DNA from: a virus
Reading direction: 5' to 3' (one strand)
IMG/VR virus record: IMGVR_UViG_3300031952_000019
Location: 1 to 56,815 of that record
Length of the DNA stretch: 56,815 nucleotides
The notes beneath the pieces were generated by a model. That model had not been told where the DNA came from, made no database searches, and saw only the letters and a list, made by a program, of their open reading frames with translations. Below are positions 2,805 to 53,023 of this stretch, in pieces. The number at the start of each line of letters is the position of its first letter. Within the stretch, counting starts at the first letter, position 1. The position numbers and the translations under genes were made by a program.

Positions 2805-2946
2805 TATTTTTCTCCCTAAAAAAGTTGTTAATGATTAACGTCAACATGTTTGAGACTGTTCTTTGTTCTTCCTTCGCCATTACTTCCACTTCTTCAACAA
2901 CACTTTTTTTGAGATAAACTCCCTTTACCAATTTTTTTTCTTTCAT
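2779..2946 (-). CDS. Ribbon-helix-helix (Arc/CopG-like) DNA-binding protein
   Basis: The 55-residue product has the plan of a ribbon-helix-helix repressor: a short beta strand (KGVYLKKSV), helix A (VVEEVEVMAKEE), a turn, and helix B (TVSNMLTLIINNFF). Such proteins dimerise and bind operators through the beta strand. It starts at an ATG preceded by GGAGGAAATAAA and overlaps the upstream stop (ATGA). It is the only evident transcription regulator on the minus strand and might act on the leader elements near 4.5 and 5.9 kb, but that link is inference. Confidence 0.7.
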   Translation of the reverse strand: MKEKKLVKGVYLKKSVVEEVEVMAKEEQRTVSNMLTLIINNFFREKNNDTIEKEK

Positions 2947-3431
2947 TTTATTTCCTCCAATTTATTGCTAATATAAATACACAAAGAGTAATCAGGGTAA
3001 TTGAGGCAGCCAGGACAGTGAGAACAATCGGGGGTAAATTCGTCGATTGGTGGTGACATTAAGTGTGTTTTTACTTCCTCTGCATTCATTGGTAATGTTC
3101 TTTCCATCATTTTATCCTCCTTTATTTTATAGAATTCAAAGATATATGCATCCGTTTCCATTATGGGAAAATAAGGATTATTTTCCTGCGAACCATCATG
3201 CCATAAATATATTGGTTGATCGGCGTGGTCATAAAACCATTTTTTTGCCACTTCAAAATCTTCAAAGTCAGATACTTTTTTTTCTGAAATCAAATTTTCT
3301 GATTGTACATATTCGGCTCTTGTTATGTGCCAATGTTTTGTTTTAAATAGTTGTTTAAGTTTTTCTAAAAATATAGGATTGTATGTTTCTTGGTAAGCTT
3401 CACAATACATTGCAAATAAGTTTGTATTCAT
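2943..3431 (-). CDS. Unknown protein with C-terminal cysteine cluster
   Basis: The 162-residue product has a globular body with many aromatic residues and a C-terminal cluster CSHCPGC followed by a single C about ten residues later, which may hold zinc. The ATG follows a GGGGG run in the same AAATAAAATG context used by its neighbours. It overlaps genes on both sides by four bases, so it sits in the middle of a coupled operon. I do not recognise it. Confidence 0.7.
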   Translation of the reverse strand: MNTNLFAMYCEAYQETYNPIFLEKLKQLFKTKHWHITRAEYVQSENLISEKKVSDFEDFEVAKKWFYDHADQPIYLWHDGSQENNPYFPIMETDAYIFEFYKIKEDKMMERTLPMNAEEVKTHLMSPPIDEFTPDCSHCPGCLNYPDYSLCIYISNKLEEIK

Positions 3432-3692: not shown

Positions 3693-4127
3693 TTAAATGT
3701 TTAACTCTTTTATTTTTTTATCATATTCTTCCTTTGTCATTTTTACGTTGCAAATTTCATATTGTCCATTTTTGACCCCTGAGCAGAAAGAGCATTTGAA
3801 GCAACCAAAACAAAAAGAACATTCGGAACAGGAAGAACATTCAGAGCAATGAGAGCAATTAGAACAATTAGAGCAATGAGAGCAATTAGAACAATGAGAA
3901 CAATCAGAGCAATGAGAACAATTGATACAATTGGCACTCCAAGAACACCAAGAACAACCAGAACAACCAGAACAATCCGAGCAATTGGAACAATTAAAGC
4001 AATCGGCACAAATAACACAACCAGAACAATTGGAGCAATTAGAACCATAGGACTTTTGGTCCAATGATAATGTATAATTTTGTATTTCTTTTAAATTCAT
4101 TGACAATATCTCTTTTTTTGTTTTCAT
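3693..4127 (-). CDS. Cysteine-every-third-residue repeat protein
   Basis: The 144-residue product has a 28-residue leader, then 29 consecutive triplets (residues 29-115) of form x-x-Cys. Of these, 28 end in cysteine and one (SWS) does not; most triplets begin with serine (SNC, SHC, SGC, SEC). A charged tail (MTKEEYDKKIKELNI) follows. The ATG has an AGGAGG site and overlaps the upstream gene (ATGA), so it is a real operon member. Such regular cysteine spacing could form a stacked helix or coil that is disulphide-linked or binds metal (zinc or iron-sulphur). I know no defined function for such a protein. Confidence 0.8.
   Translation of the reverse strand: MKTKKEILSMNLKEIQNYTLSLDQKSYGSNCSNCSGCVICADCFNCSNCSDCSGCSGCSWCSWSANCINCSHCSDCSHCSNCSHCSNCSNCSHCSECSSCSECSFCFGCFKCSFCSGVKNGQYEICNVKMTKEEYDKKIKELNI
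3783..4043 (-). repeat. 9-bp coding tandem repeat (x-x-Cys units)
   Basis: About 29 degenerate copies of a 9-base unit lie end to end and encode the x-x-Cys triplets. The second codon position varies more than the flanking ones, as expected when slippage creates copies and selection keeps the cysteine. The same repeat gives apparent open frames on the other strand and in other frames, which I treat as shadows. Confidence 0.85.
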
Positions 4128-4417
4128 TTTTGTTGCCTCCTGTTTGATAGATTATTGATATTATCAACGATAATTTGTAGTTTCTGGCACTCCACATTAT
4201 AAGCAGCAAAATCTTTGTGGCTTAACCCGCTCTTATAGTGTGATGCATATGTACTCGTCGATGCAATCCGGTAGGGCGTATGTCCGCGGTATACTTTTTT
4301 CTCGTCGTGCACAATGGCAATGGAAGCAACTATGCGATGCATATAGCCACTACCGATATTTCTGCCTCTCCGATGTACAAGCACACTCTTTTCTCCATCT
4401 TTTAATATGTAGTTCAT
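4124..4417 (-). CDS. Unknown protein, first gene after leader copy A
   Basis: The 97-residue product begins MNYILKDGEKSVLV and is basic, with several serine/tyrosine-rich turns (STSTYASHYKSG). The ATG at 4417 is preceded by GGAGG; a longer in-frame start at 4501 would lie inside the repeated leader element and has no ribosome site, so I reject it. It is the first gene downstream of leader copy A. No family is recognised. Confidence 0.7.
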   Translation of the reverse strand: MNYILKDGEKSVLVHRRGRNIGSGYMHRIVASIAIVHDEKKVYRGHTPYRIASTSTYASHYKSGLSHKDFAAYNVECQKLQIIVDNINNLSNRRQQK

Positions 4418-8196: not shown

Positions 8197-8898
8197 ATGA
8201 TTACAAGAAGAAAGAAATTTGAGACAAAGGAAGAGTTAAAGATAAGACGAATGGGCAACATAAAAAATGTTGTTAAGAAAAATATAAAAGATATGACTGA
8301 AATGACAAATGCTGGAGTTAATCCATCCGATAGGGCAAACTTAACACCACATGAGCTGAAATTTGTTTTAGAGTACATGAAAGATTATGTGGCGGCTTAC
8401 GCGGCAGAGCGAAGTGGTTATAGTGCACAAATGGGATATCTTCTTTTAAAGAAGCCAAAAGTGTTGGCGGCGATTGACAGTTACGAAAAGAACTTAGCTA
8501 CAAGATTTATTTTCTCCAAGAACAAAGTGTTGAAGGAATTATCGTTAATATCAAATTCTGACATAAGTGACTATGTGGAAATAATAGATGGGAAAACTTA
8601 TTTGAAGGACACAAAGGATTTACTACCTCAAATAAGTAGAGCAATTAAAAAAGTGAGGGGAACAAGAAAAGTAACAGCCATTAAAGACAGCAAGGGAAAT
8701 TACACCGGAGAAGATATATTAGACGACAAAATAGAAATTGAGCTTTATGATAAAATACAAGCTCTCCAGTTGATGGGGAAAGAGTTAAACATGTTTAAGG
8801 ATAAAACAGAAATTACAGGAGCAAACGGAAGTCCATTACTTCCTGTAAAATTGGTGCTAGATTTCGGTGCTGAAACGGCGATAGCAAGTGGAGAATGA
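8197..8898 (+). CDS. terS: Terminase small subunit (Terminase_2-like)
   Basis: The 233-residue product matches the layout of PBSX-type small terminases: a basic N-terminus, the LTPHELKFVLEYMKDYVAAYAAERSGYS region (a helix-turn-helix that binds the packaging site, residues ~50-77), then KKPKVLAAID, and a central helical part for oligomerisation. It would recognise phage DNA and regulate the large subunit, which starts 11 bases before this gene ends. The ATG at 8197 has only a distant AGGAAAG; an in-frame ATG at 8251 is the alternative start. Confidence 0.85.
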   Translation: MITRRKKFETKEELKIRRMGNIKNVVKKNIKDMTEMTNAGVNPSDRANLTPHELKFVLEYMKDYVAAYAAERSGYSAQMGYLLLKKPKVLAAIDSYEKNLATRFIFSKNKVLKELSLISNSDISDYVEIIDGKTYLKDTKDLLPQISRAIKKVRGTRKVTAIKDSKGNYTGEDILDDKIEIELYDKIQALQLMGKELNMFKDKTEITGANGSPLLPVKLVLDFGAETAIASGE

Positions 8899-10093
8899 AA
8901 TAAGGATAAAATGTCCTCCGATATTTTCCCCCTTGTCAGAGGCGCACAGATACAAAAGCTTTTATGGTGGAAGAGGTGGAGCCAAAAGTTGGGCATTTGC
9001 AAGGACATTATTAGCAATAGCAGCAACAAGAAAAGTAAGAGTGTTATGTACAAGAGAGTTTCAATCATCAATAGCGGAGTCGGTGCATAAATTGTTGAGT
9101 ACGCAAATTGAAAGATTACAATTGAATCCTTATTATACGATACAGAAGAATTCAATTGTGAGCACGATGGGTAGCGAGTTTTTATTTAAGGGTTTACGAT
9201 TTAATGTGCAGGAAATAAAATCCTTGGAAGATATTGACATTGCATGGGTCGAAGAAGCGCAGAGCACTTCTGAAGAGAGTTGGAAGGTATTAATCCCAAC
9301 AATAAGGAAAAAGGACAGTGAGATATGGTTGAGTTGGAATACAGGGGAAGTGAAAGATCCAACTTACCAGAGATTTGTTGTGAAACCACCTCCGGATTGC
9401 GTGAGTGTGAAAGTGGGTTGGCAAGACAATCCCTATTTCCCAGAAGTGTTGATGAAGGAAAAAGATTATTTGAAGAGAGTGGATCCAGATGCTTATGACA
9501 ACATATGGGAAGGGAATCCATTATCAATATCCAATTCATGTATTTTTAAAGGTAAATATGTTGAAGCAGAGTTTGAAGCTCCTGAAGGTACGAGATTTTT
9601 TTATGGGGCAGACTGGGGATTCAGCAACGATCCGACGGTTTTGCTTCGCTCTTACATAGAAGATAAGAAATTATTTGTTGATCACTGTGCATATGGAGTT
9701 GGTGTTGAGCTAGATGAGTTGCCAAAGTTGTTTGAGGCAGTTCCTGAGAGCAAAGAATGGACAATAAAAGCAGATAACAGTCGGCCAGAAACGATCAGTT
9801 ATGTAAGGAAGAAACATGGATACAAGATTGAACCGGCAAAGAAGTGGAGCGGCAGCGTGGAAGATGGAGTCTCCTATCTCAAGAAATTTGAGGAAATTGT
9901 GGTTCACGCACGTTGCAAGCACGTATTGGAAGAGTTTAAGCTTTATTCTTACAAACAAGATACGAAAACTGGTGAGACACTTCCAATTATTTTAGACAAG
10001 CACAATCACTGTATGGATGCCTTGCGTTATTCTCTTGATGGATATATTACTGGTGGGAAAACAAACTGGAGTGCATTTTTAGGAGAACAATGA
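8888..10093 (+). CDS. terL: Terminase large subunit (Terminase_3 family)
   Basis: This is the packaging motor. The 401-residue product has the Walker A motif YGGRGGAKS (residues 26-34), the Walker B region IDIAWVEEAQ (~115-124), and a C-terminal RNase H-like nuclease with GADWGF, the ADNSRPE segment and the HNHCMDALRY end motif that supply the metal-binding acids. The order and length fit PBSX/Terminase_3 enzymes. It starts at GTG 8888, overlapping terS. All key residues seem present, so it should be active. Confidence 0.95.
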   Translation: MENEIRIKCPPIFSPLSEAHRYKSFYGGRGGAKSWAFARTLLAIAATRKVRVLCTREFQSSIAESVHKLLSTQIERLQLNPYYTIQKNSIVSTMGSEFLFKGLRFNVQEIKSLEDIDIAWVEEAQSTSEESWKVLIPTIRKKDSEIWLSWNTGEVKDPTYQRFVVKPPPDCVSVKVGWQDNPYFPEVLMKEKDYLKRVDPDAYDNIWEGNPLSISNSCIFKGKYVEAEFEAPEGTRFFYGADWGFSNDPTVLLRSYIEDKKLFVDHCAYGVGVELDELPKLFEAVPESKEWTIKADNSRPETISYVRKKHGYKIEPAKKWSGSVEDGVSYLKKFEEIVVHARCKHVLEEFKLYSYKQDTKTGETLPIILDKHNHCMDALRYSLDGYITGGKTNWSAFLGEQ

Positions 10094-36396: not shown

Positions 36397-36486
36397 ATGA
36401 TGGTTGCAAACAGAGCATACTTTAACAAGTCCAACAATCCTGTGGTTGTTGGGTGGGACACTTGCCGAGCCTCTGCCCATATTTAA
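36397..36486 (+). CDS. Possible 29-residue peptide
   Basis: A short frame (MMVANRAYFNKSNNPVVVGW plus nine more residues) fills the gap between the acyltransferase and the mutase-like gene, but no convincing ribosome site precedes it. It could simply be leader sequence. No similarity to a cobalamin-binding domain is visible. Confidence 0.25.
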   Translation: MMVANRAYFNKSNNPVVVGWDTCRASAHI

Positions 36487-36494
36487 GGAATATT

Positions 36495-38066
36495 ATGGAT
36501 AATTTGTACACCCCACAATCGATTCCTAATTTTGATTATACCAAGGATTTAGGTGATCCTGGAAAAGCCCCTTATACTCGTGGGATTTACGCGAACATGT
36601 ACAAAGGAAAAGAATTTACGATGCGCCAATTAACGGGTTTCGGTTTGCCTGAAGATACTAACAAGAGAATGAAGTTCATGCTGGAGAATGGAGCTACCGG
36701 ATTGAGTGTGCTTTTTGATTTCCCAACTATTCAGATGTACGATTCTGATGATAAAGTTTCAGAGGGTCATGTAGGATTTTCTGGAGTATGTGTAGATTCG
36801 ATAGAGGATATGTACGATCTTTTTGAGGGGATCGACATTAAAAAAGTATCCATATCAATTGTAACACACTATCCAACGAACACTGCAATCTTATTTTCGA
36901 TGTTCTTGGCTATGGTAGAAGAGAAAAAGATTTCTTTCAGTGAGTTGAGAGGAAGTGTACAAAATGACGCCACGATGGAAGAGGTAGTAAGATGTGGAGC
37001 AGAATTTATTTCACCTAAGAATTGTTTCCGGATTCAATGCGATAACTTTGAATTCATAATGAAGAACATTCCCAAGTGGAATCCCATAACTTTGAACGGG
37101 TACAATTTAAGAGAGTGTGGGACATCGGCGATAACAGAAATGGCGGTGGCTATATCAAACGGAGTGGCAACGATCAATGAAATAGTCTTGAGAGGGTACA
37201 TGCCAAGTGAAATTGCCAGCAGGATTGCATTCTTTTGGTCTATCGATAGGAACTTCTTTGAAGAAGTTTCAAGGCTCCGTGCAGTGAGAAGAGTTTGGTA
37301 TAAGTTGATGAAATACAAGTTCAACATTACTGAAGGCAAAGGATTGTTGATGAGATGTCATGTTCAGACTTCTGGCATTTCCTTAACGAAACAAGAGCCT
37401 TTAAATAATATTGTTAGATCAGCCTACCAAGCTTTATCCGCTGTGTTTGGCGGTGTACAGTCATTGCACGTAGATTCATACGACGAAGCTTACTCAGTTC
37501 CTACAGAAGAAGCAGCTTTAATTTCCTTGAGAACACAGCAGATTATCCAAGATGAGACTGGTGTAACGGATGTGATTGACCCTCTGGGCGGGTCTTACTT
37601 TATAGAAGCTCTCACGAACAAAATTGAAAAAGAATTGCTTAATGAAATTAATAAAATAGAAAACAATGGAGGGTATATTTATCTGCTTCAATCTGGAAAG
37701 TTGCACAAAGAAGTTTCTGTCTTTGCATATGATCAACAGAAGAAAATGGAAGATGGCTCTATCCCTATTGTTGGAGTAAATAAATATAAGCGGCAAAATG
37801 TAAGTACACCCGTGAGCATGTTCCAATATCCCTTGGGGGTAGAAGAAAAACAAAAAGACAAGTTAATTTTATTGAGAGCCAAGAGAGACAATAAAAAAGT
37901 TAAGAAAACTTTGGCCGATCTTGAAAGAGTTTGTGGAACGAAAGAAAATGTAATTCCATATTGTATTGAGTGCGCCAAGGCAAGATGTACAGAAGGGGAA
38001 ATGTTTAAGTCGTTTAAGAATGCATTTGGGCTTTGGAAGGAGAAGAACGTATGGGTATGGCAGTAG
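36495..38066 (+). CDS. Methylmalonyl-CoA mutase large-subunit homologue
   Basis: The 523-residue product is clearly in the acyl-CoA mutase family (MM_CoA_mutase). Seen motifs: PYTRGIYANMYKGKEFTMRQ (26-45), GLSVLFDFPT (69-78), SVQNDATMEEVVRCG (154-168), NPITLNGYNLRECGTSA, LMRCHVQTSGISLTKQEP, LHVDSYDEAYSVPTEEA and IDPLGGSYFIE. It has no cobalamin-binding domain (no D-x-H-x-x-G) and would need a separate small subunit. Aligned to known enzymes, the catalytic His of GYH is Asn204, the Tyr after TMRQ is Leu46, and the Ala before FD is Leu73, but the Arg of the carboxylate pocket is kept (Arg166). AAGGA precedes the ATG. Substrate and activity are unknown. Confidence 0.85.
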   Translation: MDNLYTPQSIPNFDYTKDLGDPGKAPYTRGIYANMYKGKEFTMRQLTGFGLPEDTNKRMKFMLENGATGLSVLFDFPTIQMYDSDDKVSEGHVGFSGVCVDSIEDMYDLFEGIDIKKVSISIVTHYPTNTAILFSMFLAMVEEKKISFSELRGSVQNDATMEEVVRCGAEFISPKNCFRIQCDNFEFIMKNIPKWNPITLNGYNLRECGTSAITEMAVAISNGVATINEIVLRGYMPSEIASRIAFFWSIDRNFFEEVSRLRAVRRVWYKLMKYKFNITEGKGLLMRCHVQTSGISLTKQEPLNNIVRSAYQALSAVFGGVQSLHVDSYDEAYSVPTEEAALISLRTQQIIQDETGVTDVIDPLGGSYFIEALTNKIEKELLNEINKIENNGGYIYLLQSGKLHKEVSVFAYDQQKKMEDGSIPIVGVNKYKRQNVSTPVSMFQYPLGVEEKQKDKLILLRAKRDNKKVKKTLADLERVCGTKENVIPYCIECAKARCTEGEMFKSFKNAFGLWKEKNVWVWQ

Positions 38067-49653: not shown

Positions 49654-50831
49654 AGTCGGTTTACAATGACATAGCAAGAGAGTTTTTTATAAAGCGTAAT
49701 TTTCTACGCGCGATAGAATATCAGTCCATTCATTTGACTATGTTTGTTGATGACGCCGAGGGCTGGTTAAATTTAGGGAAAGCTTTAACTTTTACTGAAC
49801 AGTTTGAAGAGGCTGAAAGAGTATTATTAAGAAGTTGTGAGTTAGCTCCAGACAGAGTTAACTATTTATTAGATTTACAAGTTCTCTATACATTAACGAG
49901 TAATGCTGAAAAATATGTCCCAATCGTGGAACGACTAAAGAGAGAAATTCCGAATGAAAAAAGACTAATTTTTAATTGCGCTTGGGACAGAATAAAGGCT
50001 GGAGAAACTTATGAAGGATTTGCTGACTTAGAAGTAGGCCGACAAGAGGGATTCTTTGGCTCTGATTATACAGATTTCAAGGGGGTTCGATTACCTAGTT
50101 TAGAAAAGATTAAAGGAAATAAAATAGCTATAATCGGTGAGGGTGGTTTAGGAGATGAGATAATTGCTTCGCGTTATGCATCTCTGATTAAAAAATATGA
50201 TGGAACCCCAATTCTCTATGTAAGTGAGTCCTTGCATAGCATATTAGGGCATTTAGCCAAATGTAGAAAGGGTGCTGACAGTGTTAATGGTGGCAAGAAT
50301 TTTAGTGATATTAATAATAGTATTGAGTTTGACTATTATATCCCGGGCATGGCTTCTGCTGCATTATTTAAGGAGATACCTAATGAAGTTTATTTATTTG
50401 CAAAACCAGAATATATTGAGAAGCATAAAATAATTTCAGATAAAAAGAAAGTGGGAATCTGTTGGCATGGGAACACCTCTTATGAATGGGAGCAGATAAG
50501 AGGTATTCCTAAAGATTTAATGTTTTCGTTGAAAGATGATAAGATAGAATTATTTAATTTGCAAAAAGGTGAAACAGATTTACAGCTTGATAGCTGGGAT
50601 GATACTTTGGGAATAATTGCTAATCTTGATTGCGTGGTTAGTTCATGTACCTCTATTGTACATGCGGCGGCGGGAATGGGGAAAAGAGTTTATTTACTCA
50701 CACCCCTTGCACCTTATTATGTCTGGACATCTAAAGAGAAATGGTATCAAGATGTAATTATTTTTAACAAAGATCAGTACAATGGTTATGCAAAGCATAT
50801 TGAAACAATACGAGGATTAATATGTCAGTAA
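49650..50831 (+). CDS. TPR plus GT9-like glycosyltransferase
   Basis: The 393-residue product has about three TPR-like helix pairs at the N-terminus (AREFFIKRNFLRAIEYQSIH, AEGWLNLGKALTFTEQFEEA) and a GT-B (GT9, heptosyltransferase-like) C-terminal domain: NKIAIIGEGGLGDEIIASRY, KKVGICWHGNTSYEW, and DCVVSSCTSIVHAAAGMGKR with the usual S-C-T-S-x-x-H-x-A-A site. TPR-glycosyltransferases often modify proteins rather than lipids, which fits a virion substrate. The ATG follows GGGGGAG. Confidence 0.8.
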   Translation: MKSVYNDIAREFFIKRNFLRAIEYQSIHLTMFVDDAEGWLNLGKALTFTEQFEEAERVLLRSCELAPDRVNYLLDLQVLYTLTSNAEKYVPIVERLKREIPNEKRLIFNCAWDRIKAGETYEGFADLEVGRQEGFFGSDYTDFKGVRLPSLEKIKGNKIAIIGEGGLGDEIIASRYASLIKKYDGTPILYVSESLHSILGHLAKCRKGADSVNGGKNFSDINNSIEFDYYIPGMASAALFKEIPNEVYLFAKPEYIEKHKIISDKKKVGICWHGNTSYEWEQIRGIPKDLMFSLKDDKIELFNLQKGETDLQLDSWDDTLGIIANLDCVVSSCTSIVHAAAGMGKRVYLLTPLAPYYVWTSKEKWYQDVIIFNKDQYNGYAKHIETIRGLICQ

Positions 50832-53023
50832 AATTATTATTAGGAATAAAGAAAGCACCGCCTGATCCTTTAATAGGAAGAACTCTCTGGTCATGGGGAA
50901 GTGGAACAGAAGGAGAATTGGGTGATGGTGCATATACTAAGAAATCTTCGCCAATTCAAGTTGGTACTTTGACAACGTGGGCAAAAATTGTAAGTAGTCT
51001 ATATCACGTTCTTGCAATTAAAACAGATGGAACTCTCTGGTCATGGGGCTATAACCCTTATGGAGAGTTGGGAGATGGTACTATTATTAGTAGGTCTTCT
51101 CCTATTCAAATTGGAGCATTGTCAACTTGGAATATAATTTCTGCGGGAGGAGTAGCTGGCACTGGCGGTAGCAGTGCAGCAATAAAGATAGATGGAACAT
51201 TATGGACATGGGGGTACAATATAAATGGGCAACTTGGAGATGAAACAATCGTTGATAAATCATCTCCTATTCAAATAGGGGCTTTAACAACTTGGGCTAC
51301 TACCGTTACAAATACTGGTGGGAATACTTATGCAATTAAAACAAATGGAACTATTTGGGCATGGGGCAATGGAGCTATAGGAGGAATTGGTGATAGCACA
51401 ATCGTTTCAAAATCTTCCCCAATACAAATAGGGGCTTTAACAACTTGGGATACTTTATCGGTTAGTGCTAATGATGTAGTACATGCTATTCAAAAAGATG
51501 GTACGTTATGGGCATGGGGTAATAACACAAACGGACAACTTGGAGACGGGACAATACTCAAAAGATCCTCTCCTGTAAAAATAGGAGCATTAACAACTTG
51601 GAATCAAATTTCTCAAGGAAGAAGTCATACGGTAGCAACTAAAATAGATGGAACATTATGGACATGGGGTTTAAATACAAACGGGCAGTTGGGAGATGGC
51701 ACCGTAGTTCAGAAATCTTCCCCTGTGCAAATTGGAGCTTTGACTTCGTGGTATAAAGTTATTGCTGGTGATTACCATTCCTTAGGATTACAAACCGATG
51801 GAACCATTTGGTCATGGGGATTGGGAACGAGTGGGCAGCTAGGAGACGGTGCCGTAGTTTCAAAATCTTCCCCAATACAAATAGGGGCTTTAACGACATG
51901 GATAGGAATTGCAGGGGGATATCTTGATCTTTTTGGAATTAGATCAACTCCTTCAGTAGCACCATTAGGGTATAGGCTCTGGTCATGGGGAGAAAATACA
52001 TATGGGCAACTTGGAGATGGGACAATTGTTGATAGACCTGCTCCAGTTCAAGCAGGCAATCTTACAAACTGGAAAAAGATTGGTGTTAGTGAATATAATA
52101 GTGCAGCAATAAAGATAGATGGAACATTATGGACATGGGGAAGAAATTATTATGGAGAATTAGGCGATAGTACTGTAGTTGATAAATCATCCCCTATTCA
52201 AATTGGGGCTTTAACAACTTGGAGTAAAATTACTGTTAGTACTTCTGTTTTAGGAATTAAAACAGACAATACACTCTGGGCATGGGGCTATAACTCTTCT
52301 GGGCAACTTGGAGATGGAACTATTATAGACAAGTCCTCTCCTATTCAAATTGGAGCTTTAACAACTTGGAGTAAAATTACATGTAGTATATCTACAATAG
52401 GAATTAAGACAGACAATACACTCTGGGCATGGGGTAATAACATATTAGGACAACTTGGAGATGGAACTATTATAGACAAGTCCTCTCCTATTCAAATTGG
52501 AGCTTTAACAACTTGGAGTCAAGCAACAAGTAGTTTAGCATCTTTAGCAATTAAAACAGATGGTACGTTATGGGCATGGGGGAGTAATGCAAATGGAGAA
52601 TTAGGAGATGGTACTGTAGTCAACAAATCTTCCCCGATACAAATAGGAGCATTAACAACTTGGAGAAAAGTTTCAGCCGGATATAGTCATACGGTAGCAA
52701 TTAAGACGAACGGTACATTGTGGTCATGGGGTTTAAATACAAATGGAGAATTAGGTAATAGTACTGTAGTTAAGAAGTCATCTCCCATTCAAATTGGAGC
52801 TTTGACAGAATGGAATGATGTTTTTGCTGGAAGATATTCGGTCTTAGCTCTTAAAACAAATGGAACTATTTGGGCATGGGGGCTTAATAACAAGGGACAA
52901 CTTGGAGATGGAACATTGATAAGTAGGTCATCTCCAATACAAATAGGAGCTTTAACATCATGGAATATTATTCCTGATAGTTGTTATAATGCAGCATATA
53001 ATATGGCTATACAATTATTATAG
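50822..53023 (+). CDS. RCC1-repeat double beta-propeller protein
   Basis: The 733-residue product is made of 14 RCC1-like units of about 50 residues, each beginning LWSWG/LWAWG/IWAWG and having GQLGDGT and SSPIQIGALTTW. Seven lie before and seven after a break (RSTPSVAPLGYRLW), which suggests two closed seven-bladed propellers in tandem. Blades are very similar to each other (the 10th and 11th are nearly identical), a sign of recent duplication. RCC1 repeats usually bind proteins. It lies amid fibre and glycan genes, so it may be an adhesin. It overlaps the previous gene by ten bases. Confidence 0.85.
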   Translation: MSVKLLLGIKKAPPDPLIGRTLWSWGSGTEGELGDGAYTKKSSPIQVGTLTTWAKIVSSLYHVLAIKTDGTLWSWGYNPYGELGDGTIISRSSPIQIGALSTWNIISAGGVAGTGGSSAAIKIDGTLWTWGYNINGQLGDETIVDKSSPIQIGALTTWATTVTNTGGNTYAIKTNGTIWAWGNGAIGGIGDSTIVSKSSPIQIGALTTWDTLSVSANDVVHAIQKDGTLWAWGNNTNGQLGDGTILKRSSPVKIGALTTWNQISQGRSHTVATKIDGTLWTWGLNTNGQLGDGTVVQKSSPVQIGALTSWYKVIAGDYHSLGLQTDGTIWSWGLGTSGQLGDGAVVSKSSPIQIGALTTWIGIAGGYLDLFGIRSTPSVAPLGYRLWSWGENTYGQLGDGTIVDRPAPVQAGNLTNWKKIGVSEYNSAAIKIDGTLWTWGRNYYGELGDSTVVDKSSPIQIGALTTWSKITVSTSVLGIKTDNTLWAWGYNSSGQLGDGTIIDKSSPIQIGALTTWSKITCSISTIGIKTDNTLWAWGNNILGQLGDGTIIDKSSPIQIGALTTWSQATSSLASLAIKTDGTLWAWGSNANGELGDGTVVNKSSPIQIGALTTWRKVSAGYSHTVAIKTNGTLWSWGLNTNGELGNSTVVKKSSPIQIGALTEWNDVFAGRYSVLALKTNGTIWAWGLNNKGQLGDGTLISRSSPIQIGALTSWNIIPDSCYNAAYNMAIQLL

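Follow-up and report, generated by a model that had tools for sequence, protein, structure and literature searches.

Introduction

Pentapeptide repeats are β-solenoids, and some of them act on DNA gyrase via DNA mimicry (PMC10886550). The present work concerns a minus-strand open reading frame (ORF) in a 56,815-nucleotide stretch of viral DNA (IMG/VR record IMGVR_UViG_3300031952_000019, positions 1 to 56,815; the whole stretch is referred to as the window), whose product carries an array of xxC triplets, i.e. a cysteine at every third residue. As in the pentapeptide-repeat proteins (PF00805; HetL, MfpA and Qnr, with a right-handed β-solenoid), the proteins of this xxC class combine long arrays, a regular core residue and end caps, occur in phages, and display variable polar outer residues drawn from a common set; in one subgroup, class iii below, the C-terminal domain is also the same. 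However, the period is three rather than five, the core residue is Cys rather than Leu or Ala, and the xxC class is known from sequence alone. Judged by its sequence, the window protein is not a member of PF00805.

Several other described systems are rich in cysteine. The usual spacing for chelation is CxxC, and CxxCxxC is the classical [4Fe-4S] motif of bacterial ferredoxins. The initial annotation of the window had held the period to be foreign to iron-sulphur motifs; given the ferredoxin motif this does not hold, and only the length of the array is unusual. The 2[4Fe-4S] ferredoxins (CxxCxxCxxxCP) nevertheless differ from the array in that their two motifs are short, include CP and belong to a defined domain, and the window protein has no ferredoxin Pfam match and no CP in its sequence. 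Metallothioneins are similar in their high Cys content and possible metal thiolates, but they mix CC, CxC and CxxC, whereas the array has a single strict period and caps. The antifreeze protein of Tenebrio, a narrow Cys/Thr/Ser β-solenoid, is an extracellular insect protein with 12-residue turns, disulphides and a Thr ice face, unlike the xxC array.

From the analysis described below we consider it probable, on balance, that the window protein belongs to a class of phage proteins in which C-x1-x2 triplets form a narrow β-solenoid that works like a pentapeptide solenoid, probably as a binding scaffold. We infer both the solenoid fold itself and the binding of a partner.

A conserved protein with cysteine at every third residue

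The ORF encodes 144 amino acids, 29 of them Cys. The coordinates reported in the initial annotation, and its count of 28 Cys-final triplets among 29 over 87 residues, were reproduced from the translation, the sole exception being the triplet SWS at residues 62-64. The extreme regularity remarked on there was also borne out, as the longest unbroken xxC run is 17 compared with at most 4 among 40 codon-shuffled copies of the window. Likewise, Tandem Repeats Finder recovered the nine-base tandem repeat said to code for the array, as a 9-bp period (23.6 copies) accompanied by a 27-bp period inside 3834-4045. Any 9-nt repeat yields period-3 peptides in all six frames, and several raw pattern matches (e.g. 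CTPCTP) were discarded because they read other repeats on the antisense strand or out of frame. The window array is a gene and no such artefact, because a ribosome site precedes its ATG, both TGT and TGC are used for Cys with the Ser codons mixed too, and homologues recognized by a Cys-free tail motif agree with it in frame, caps and array. In combination, the window gene codes for a real, conserved protein with Cys at every third residue.

A widespread and unnamed class of phage repeat proteins

The array of the window protein is matched by PHROG 15341 (function unknown; E 9e-9). The similarity spans the array of the window protein and its relatives, whereas the N-terminal part of this PHROG fits the class ii cap described below, which the window protein does not have. 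The window protein matched no Pfam or PADLOC family, and no Pfam family, PF00805 included, was found for it or for six relatives. A protein search of IMG/VR returned two relatives, of which L003 has both ends in common with the window protein, and tblastn with the window protein against annotated phages returned nothing, probably because low-complexity masking hides the arrays. The (xxC)n pattern search proposed in the initial annotation was productive: scanning DNA for 14 xxC triplets in a row gave at least 120 stretches.

Once antisense and off-frame readings had been removed, these arrays sorted into several cap architectures. Class i, that of the window protein, has the form KTKKEIL...array...YxICNVxxTKEEYxxKxKEL. 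Class ii has YWVDENNNKW..TKEQAEKxSETLxxC leading into the array, often then NPxRY...CGCFxGTLxxF, and its N-terminal cap is followed by an xxC array in 26 of 26 loci. In class iii the array is preceded by WITDANGNRCSVEYFGSxEAAxxALxSL and followed by IPxIxNIHxxVYxAxSxPxALDMxxWHTCxTTHCRAGWxVxLAG, and in class iv it stands at the start, followed by NLKMTEYxYFC...YRVFNxQxTKExY. The Cys-free tail motif YxIxNVxxTxEEY was found in 18 stretches; L147, L151 and L154 are array-less, and of the others nearly all lie in array proteins. Proteins were assigned to the class by N- and C-terminal caps flanking at least about 10 xxC triplets in phase, and the window protein has all of these. xxC arrays are a widespread, unnamed phage repeat class with several end-cap types, and literature searches found no description of it.

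Cultured carriers are the Campylobacter phages CP220 (gp032, YP_009169166.1) and CP21 and the Flavobacterium phage FL-1, in all of which the protein is annotated as hypothetical. In FL-1 (KY421186.2; L141:2482-3313) the array is annotated in the wrong frame (coding sequence 2609-2953), and the C-terminal domain is divided between two reading frames. Among the cellular genomes sampled the array is rare, with 2 of 299 in the Rhizorhapis phylum and 0 of 296 in the Spirosoma phylum, the latter sample having missed its own known carrier at the threshold used. In the class iv genes L093:3417-3833, L095:3614-4042, L078 and L144, TGA occurs in frame at positions where relatives encode Gly. With translation table 25, in which TGA is Gly, array and tail become joined, and these phages therefore probably infect Gracilibacteria/SR1-type hosts. 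Adjacent array paralogues, up to four or more in one phage, were seen at L013, L032, L061 and L071/L081, and this side-by-side arrangement suggests diversification.

Conservation of the cysteine period

Members of the window subfamily, which have both caps in common, were counted at 9 to 63 triplets each. The initial annotation had named the loss of cysteines in relatives as a result that would speak against its reading; what was found is that Cys is kept while the copy number varies. Across 86 array ORFs the Cys-Cys spacing is 3 in 2268 of 2344 cases, 6 or 9 in 36, where Cys has been replaced in phase, and 4, 5 or 8 in 12; loss of the phase is thus very rare. These ORFs were picked for regularity, so what is informative is how the in-phase exceptions compare in number with the out-of-phase ones. 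Sites with Cys at both -3 and +3 were non-Cys in 34 of 2200 cases. The replacements were 15 Ser, 8 Leu, 6 Arg (of which five come from the doubtful locus L039) and Met, Phe, Gly, Val and Thr once each, with His, Asp, Glu and Tyr absent among the 34; a change from Cys (TGY) to Leu takes two base changes. On these small numbers, the spectrum looks more like that of a buried position than that of obligatory metal ligands, and the lack of His, Asp or Glu speaks, if only mildly, against each Cys being an essential metal ligand. At L156:492-935 (minus strand), alternate Cys are Ser across several triplets (CYNSHKCTNSKYCDNS) with the phase unbroken.

Exchange with pentapeptide repeats

The one record returned by a plasmid search with a Rhizorhapis class iii protein was from Bordetella bronchiseptica; its protein is annotated as pentapeptide repeat-containing and has dozens of pentapeptide repeats (PF00805, 4.5e-57), followed by the class iii C-terminal domain. 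This domain (WHxCxTTHCRAGW) was surveyed in IMG/VR with one xxC-type and one Bordetella-type query. Among the distinct proteins, the region upstream held 81 xxC arrays, 52 pentapeptide arrays, 8 contig-end cuts and 6 others, the 81:52 ratio being dependent on the queries. Almost nothing besides xxC and pentapeptide repeats fills the slot before the domain. In a tree of 121 class iii domains the two kinds are deep groups, with 2 changes between them, of which 1 is forced. The exchange is old and rare, and may have been repeated in L315/L318.

Variation pattern within arrays

In many arrays the synonymous sites of the unit TGY-TCN-NRY do not vary, whereas bases 1-2 of the x2 codon do. In L137, for instance, x2 is NAC with all four first bases and there is zero synonymous-site change, and in L101 Cys is TGT in 50 of 50 cases and the x2 codons end in C in 42 of 42. 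Transitions per unit pair in the xxC arrays amount to 0.26 at x2 positions 1-2 versus 0.12 at synonymous positions, with the x2 excess present in 61 of 77 arrays (Wilcoxon p 5e-8). Similarly, pentapeptide arrays in the sister proteins gave 0.20 versus 0.03 (54 of 56 arrays, p 2e-9), and the residues D, N, Y, G, R and S supply the outer positions of both kinds of array. In both kinds, most of the variation falls at positions of surface type, with far less in the core and at synonymous sites. The frozen synonymous sites are not explained by codon bias, because in L101, L088, L114 and L134 the Cys and x2 codons are each uniform, with different end bases, against a mixed background. We read this pattern as a single unit having first expanded and its exposed residues having diversified afterwards, possibly via selection, possibly via targeted mutation. 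DNA mimicry was rejected as a general rule, the net charge per triplet having a mean of -0.17 and a range of -0.55 to +0.71.

A candidate tripeptide β-solenoid

Structure prediction with AlphaFold2 (AF2; two runs, of 9 and 17 rows) was confident for the caps only. The predicted local distance difference test score (pLDDT) was <50 for the array and about 72-87 over residues 1-20, where helices are predicted; the C-terminal cap is the best-conserved region outside the array. A torsion search showed that a repeating tripeptide closes easily at a 4.8 Å pitch. In the least strained pattern Cys is β and points inward, x1 is β and points outward, and x2 is αL, with 3, 4 or 5 triplets per turn. With 5 triplets per turn, 15 of 15 modelled backbone N-H groups are bonded between turns, and models with 4-5 triplets per turn leave room for the thiols (Cβ radius 2.7-4.0 Å). 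The left-handed region is tolerated best by Asp, Gly and Asn, which together make up 59% of x2 residues. A PDB sequence search found no chain with such an array. The nearest chain, and the only one to come close to significance, was the Tenebrio thermal hysteresis protein 1EZG (E 0.03 for the single sequence, 0.002 for the profile), a match that may reflect composition only.

The β-solenoid is proposed on the basis of the module exchange, the common variation pattern and the closing of the backbone with Cys inward. In such a structure the Cys side chains would point into the core, x1 (mostly Ser) would lie on a strand and face out, and x2 (mostly Asp, Gly and Asn) would form a left-handed corner and a variable outer surface. 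With caps at both ends, the solenoid would probably be a compact intracellular scaffold, to whose varied outside a putative partner from the host or the phage would bind. The placement of all cysteines on one face, as put forward in the initial annotation, holds as geometry only, in that the torsion models allow it as the inside of a solenoid. More tentatively, and with appreciably less confidence, the array could be a new fold of 3-5 tripeptides per turn with a thiol column as its entire core, maybe holding a chain of metal ions, and with outer residues forming a fast-diversified, modular recognition surface.

Genomic context

The array gene (Table 1) lies within a minus-strand group of small ORFs to which no function could be assigned. 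This cluster adjoins the packaging genes (terminase at 8888-10093) and is oriented away from the packaging and structural genes, the record having contractile-tail-like genes as judged by eye. The statement in the initial annotation that the gene is in the early operon and so acts inside the cell goes beyond this arrangement. Across loci, replication genes recur beside the arrays (helicase, polymerase, DNA ligase and ThyX, named by eye). In CP220 a DNA ligase directly follows the array gene, and a homologue of that ligase stands beside the array in L143. Neighbour clustering across the array loci revealed no constant partner gene and no recurrent metal-handling neighbour.

Table 1. Position of the array gene and its parts in the window
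Feature	Coordinates	Strand	Remarks
xxC-array protein gene, 144 amino acids with caps	3693..4127 (stop codon counted in)	-	
Strong Shine-Dalgarno site AGGAGG	4136..4141	-	8 nt before ATG
N-terminal cap, residues 1-28 (KTKKEILSMNLKEIQ...)	4044..4127	-	kept in relatives; AF2 helices
xxC array, residues 29-115, 28/29 triplets Cys-final	3783..4043	-	AF2 confidence <50
Lone Cys-less triplet SWS	3936..3944	-	Ser in place of Cys, phase kept
C-terminal cap, residues 116-144 (...QYEICNVKMTKEEYDKKIKELNI)	3693..3782	-	predicted β hairpin and helix

Other genes of the window include a 162-residue neighbour (2943-3431, minus strand) that matched nothing in Pfam or PHROG; close to its end is CSHCPGCLNYPDYSLC, a short cluster of Cys that looks like a metal site. 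A 537-residue ORF (36453-38066, plus strand), by eye like the large subunit of methylmalonyl-CoA mutase and unusual as phage cargo, sits among glycosyltransferase- and acetyltransferase-like genes. A 733-residue protein (50822-53023, plus strand) has 147-bp tandem repeats and WAWG/GQLGDGT motifs and is RCC1-like by eye. At L130:4018-4683 a neighbour of the array has an (A-[DNY])n dipeptide repeat, with the same D/N/Y alphabet and a period of 2, perhaps another repeat of the array's kind.

Discussion

Several observations weigh against the β-solenoid proposed here. No fold is predicted for the array, as judged from its low pLDDT in both AF2 runs, and the torsion models would indicate feasibility only, since other patterns close too. 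Autocorrelation of the x residues shows no preferred lag, hence no fixed number of triplets per turn, and a solenoid leaves an all-Cys core unaccounted for. The pentapeptide exchange rests on about one or two events and is seen in class iii only, not in the window subfamily. The window protein does not have the class iii C-terminal domain, and we infer the bearing of the exchange on its subfamily. Finally, the window's own array is rich in synonymous variation and its Cys codons are mixed. Because of this, the diversification pattern characterizes the class but is unclear in the window gene, and the window array is older in the sense of expansion and diversification.

Alternatively, the successive CxxC pairs of the array might bind Zn, Cu(I) or [4Fe-4S] clusters, so that the protein would serve as a sink in the manner of metallothioneins or carry clusters in a row. 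The spacing is that of CxxC and of the ferredoxin CxxCxxC, nothing in the class is better conserved than Cys, and AF2 gives the array no metal-free fold. Still, we regard metal or cluster binding as unlikely, as the in-phase replacements are mainly Ser and Leu with none of the alternative ligands His, Asp and Glu, and the array is swapped for pentapeptide repeats, which have no metal site. Moreover, it is replication genes rather than metal-handling ones that recur nearby, and the PDB chain closest in sequence is no metalloprotein but an antifreeze solenoid with disulphide bonds. Together, the substitution spectrum and the pentapeptide exchange favour a structural core over the metal wire, disulphide rod or redox sponge suggested in the initial annotation.

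The low AF2 confidence, the low-complexity composition and the lack of a fixed turn length among the x residues would also be expected of a disordered or aggregating Cys/Ser-rich chain, or of a virion or extracellular disulphide rod, with no repeating fold in either case. However, the triplet frame is kept, the caps are conserved at both ends, and a structured solenoid serves as the replacement, which is unexpected for a disordered linker. The cytoplasm is reducing, which counts against a disulphide rod, and no signal peptide is evident by eye. We consequently judge this explanation improbable.

A precursor of a ribosomally synthesized and post-translationally modified peptide (RiPP), or the product of a diversity-generating retroelement, is highly improbable. 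The window protein is weakly similar to HxsA4, a His-Xaa-Ser repeat protein (12.9 bits, versus an NCBIfam cut-off of 55), and the x2-confined variation in many arrays resembles targeted mutagenesis. Nevertheless, a radical SAM gene is absent from the window and present in only 2 of 14 subfamily records, and no reverse transcriptase was found in the window or in 26 related records, some of them fragments. That there is no gene at all, only an unstable 9-bp repeat that reads as xxC by chance, would fit the period-3 peptides arising in every frame of such repeats and the different frame annotated at the array of FL-1, but is a negligible prospect given the ribosome site, the conserved same-frame caps, the array-independent homologues and the mixed Cys codons.

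If the β-solenoid reading is true, the xxC array would be a tripeptide, Cys-cored addition to the short list of solenoid repeats, and a very simple repeat unit for protein designers. For the phages, it would be a common, unnamed module with two exchangeable forms and fast-changing surfaces, one that can be tested directly in the members carried by cultured Campylobacter and Flavobacterium phages.
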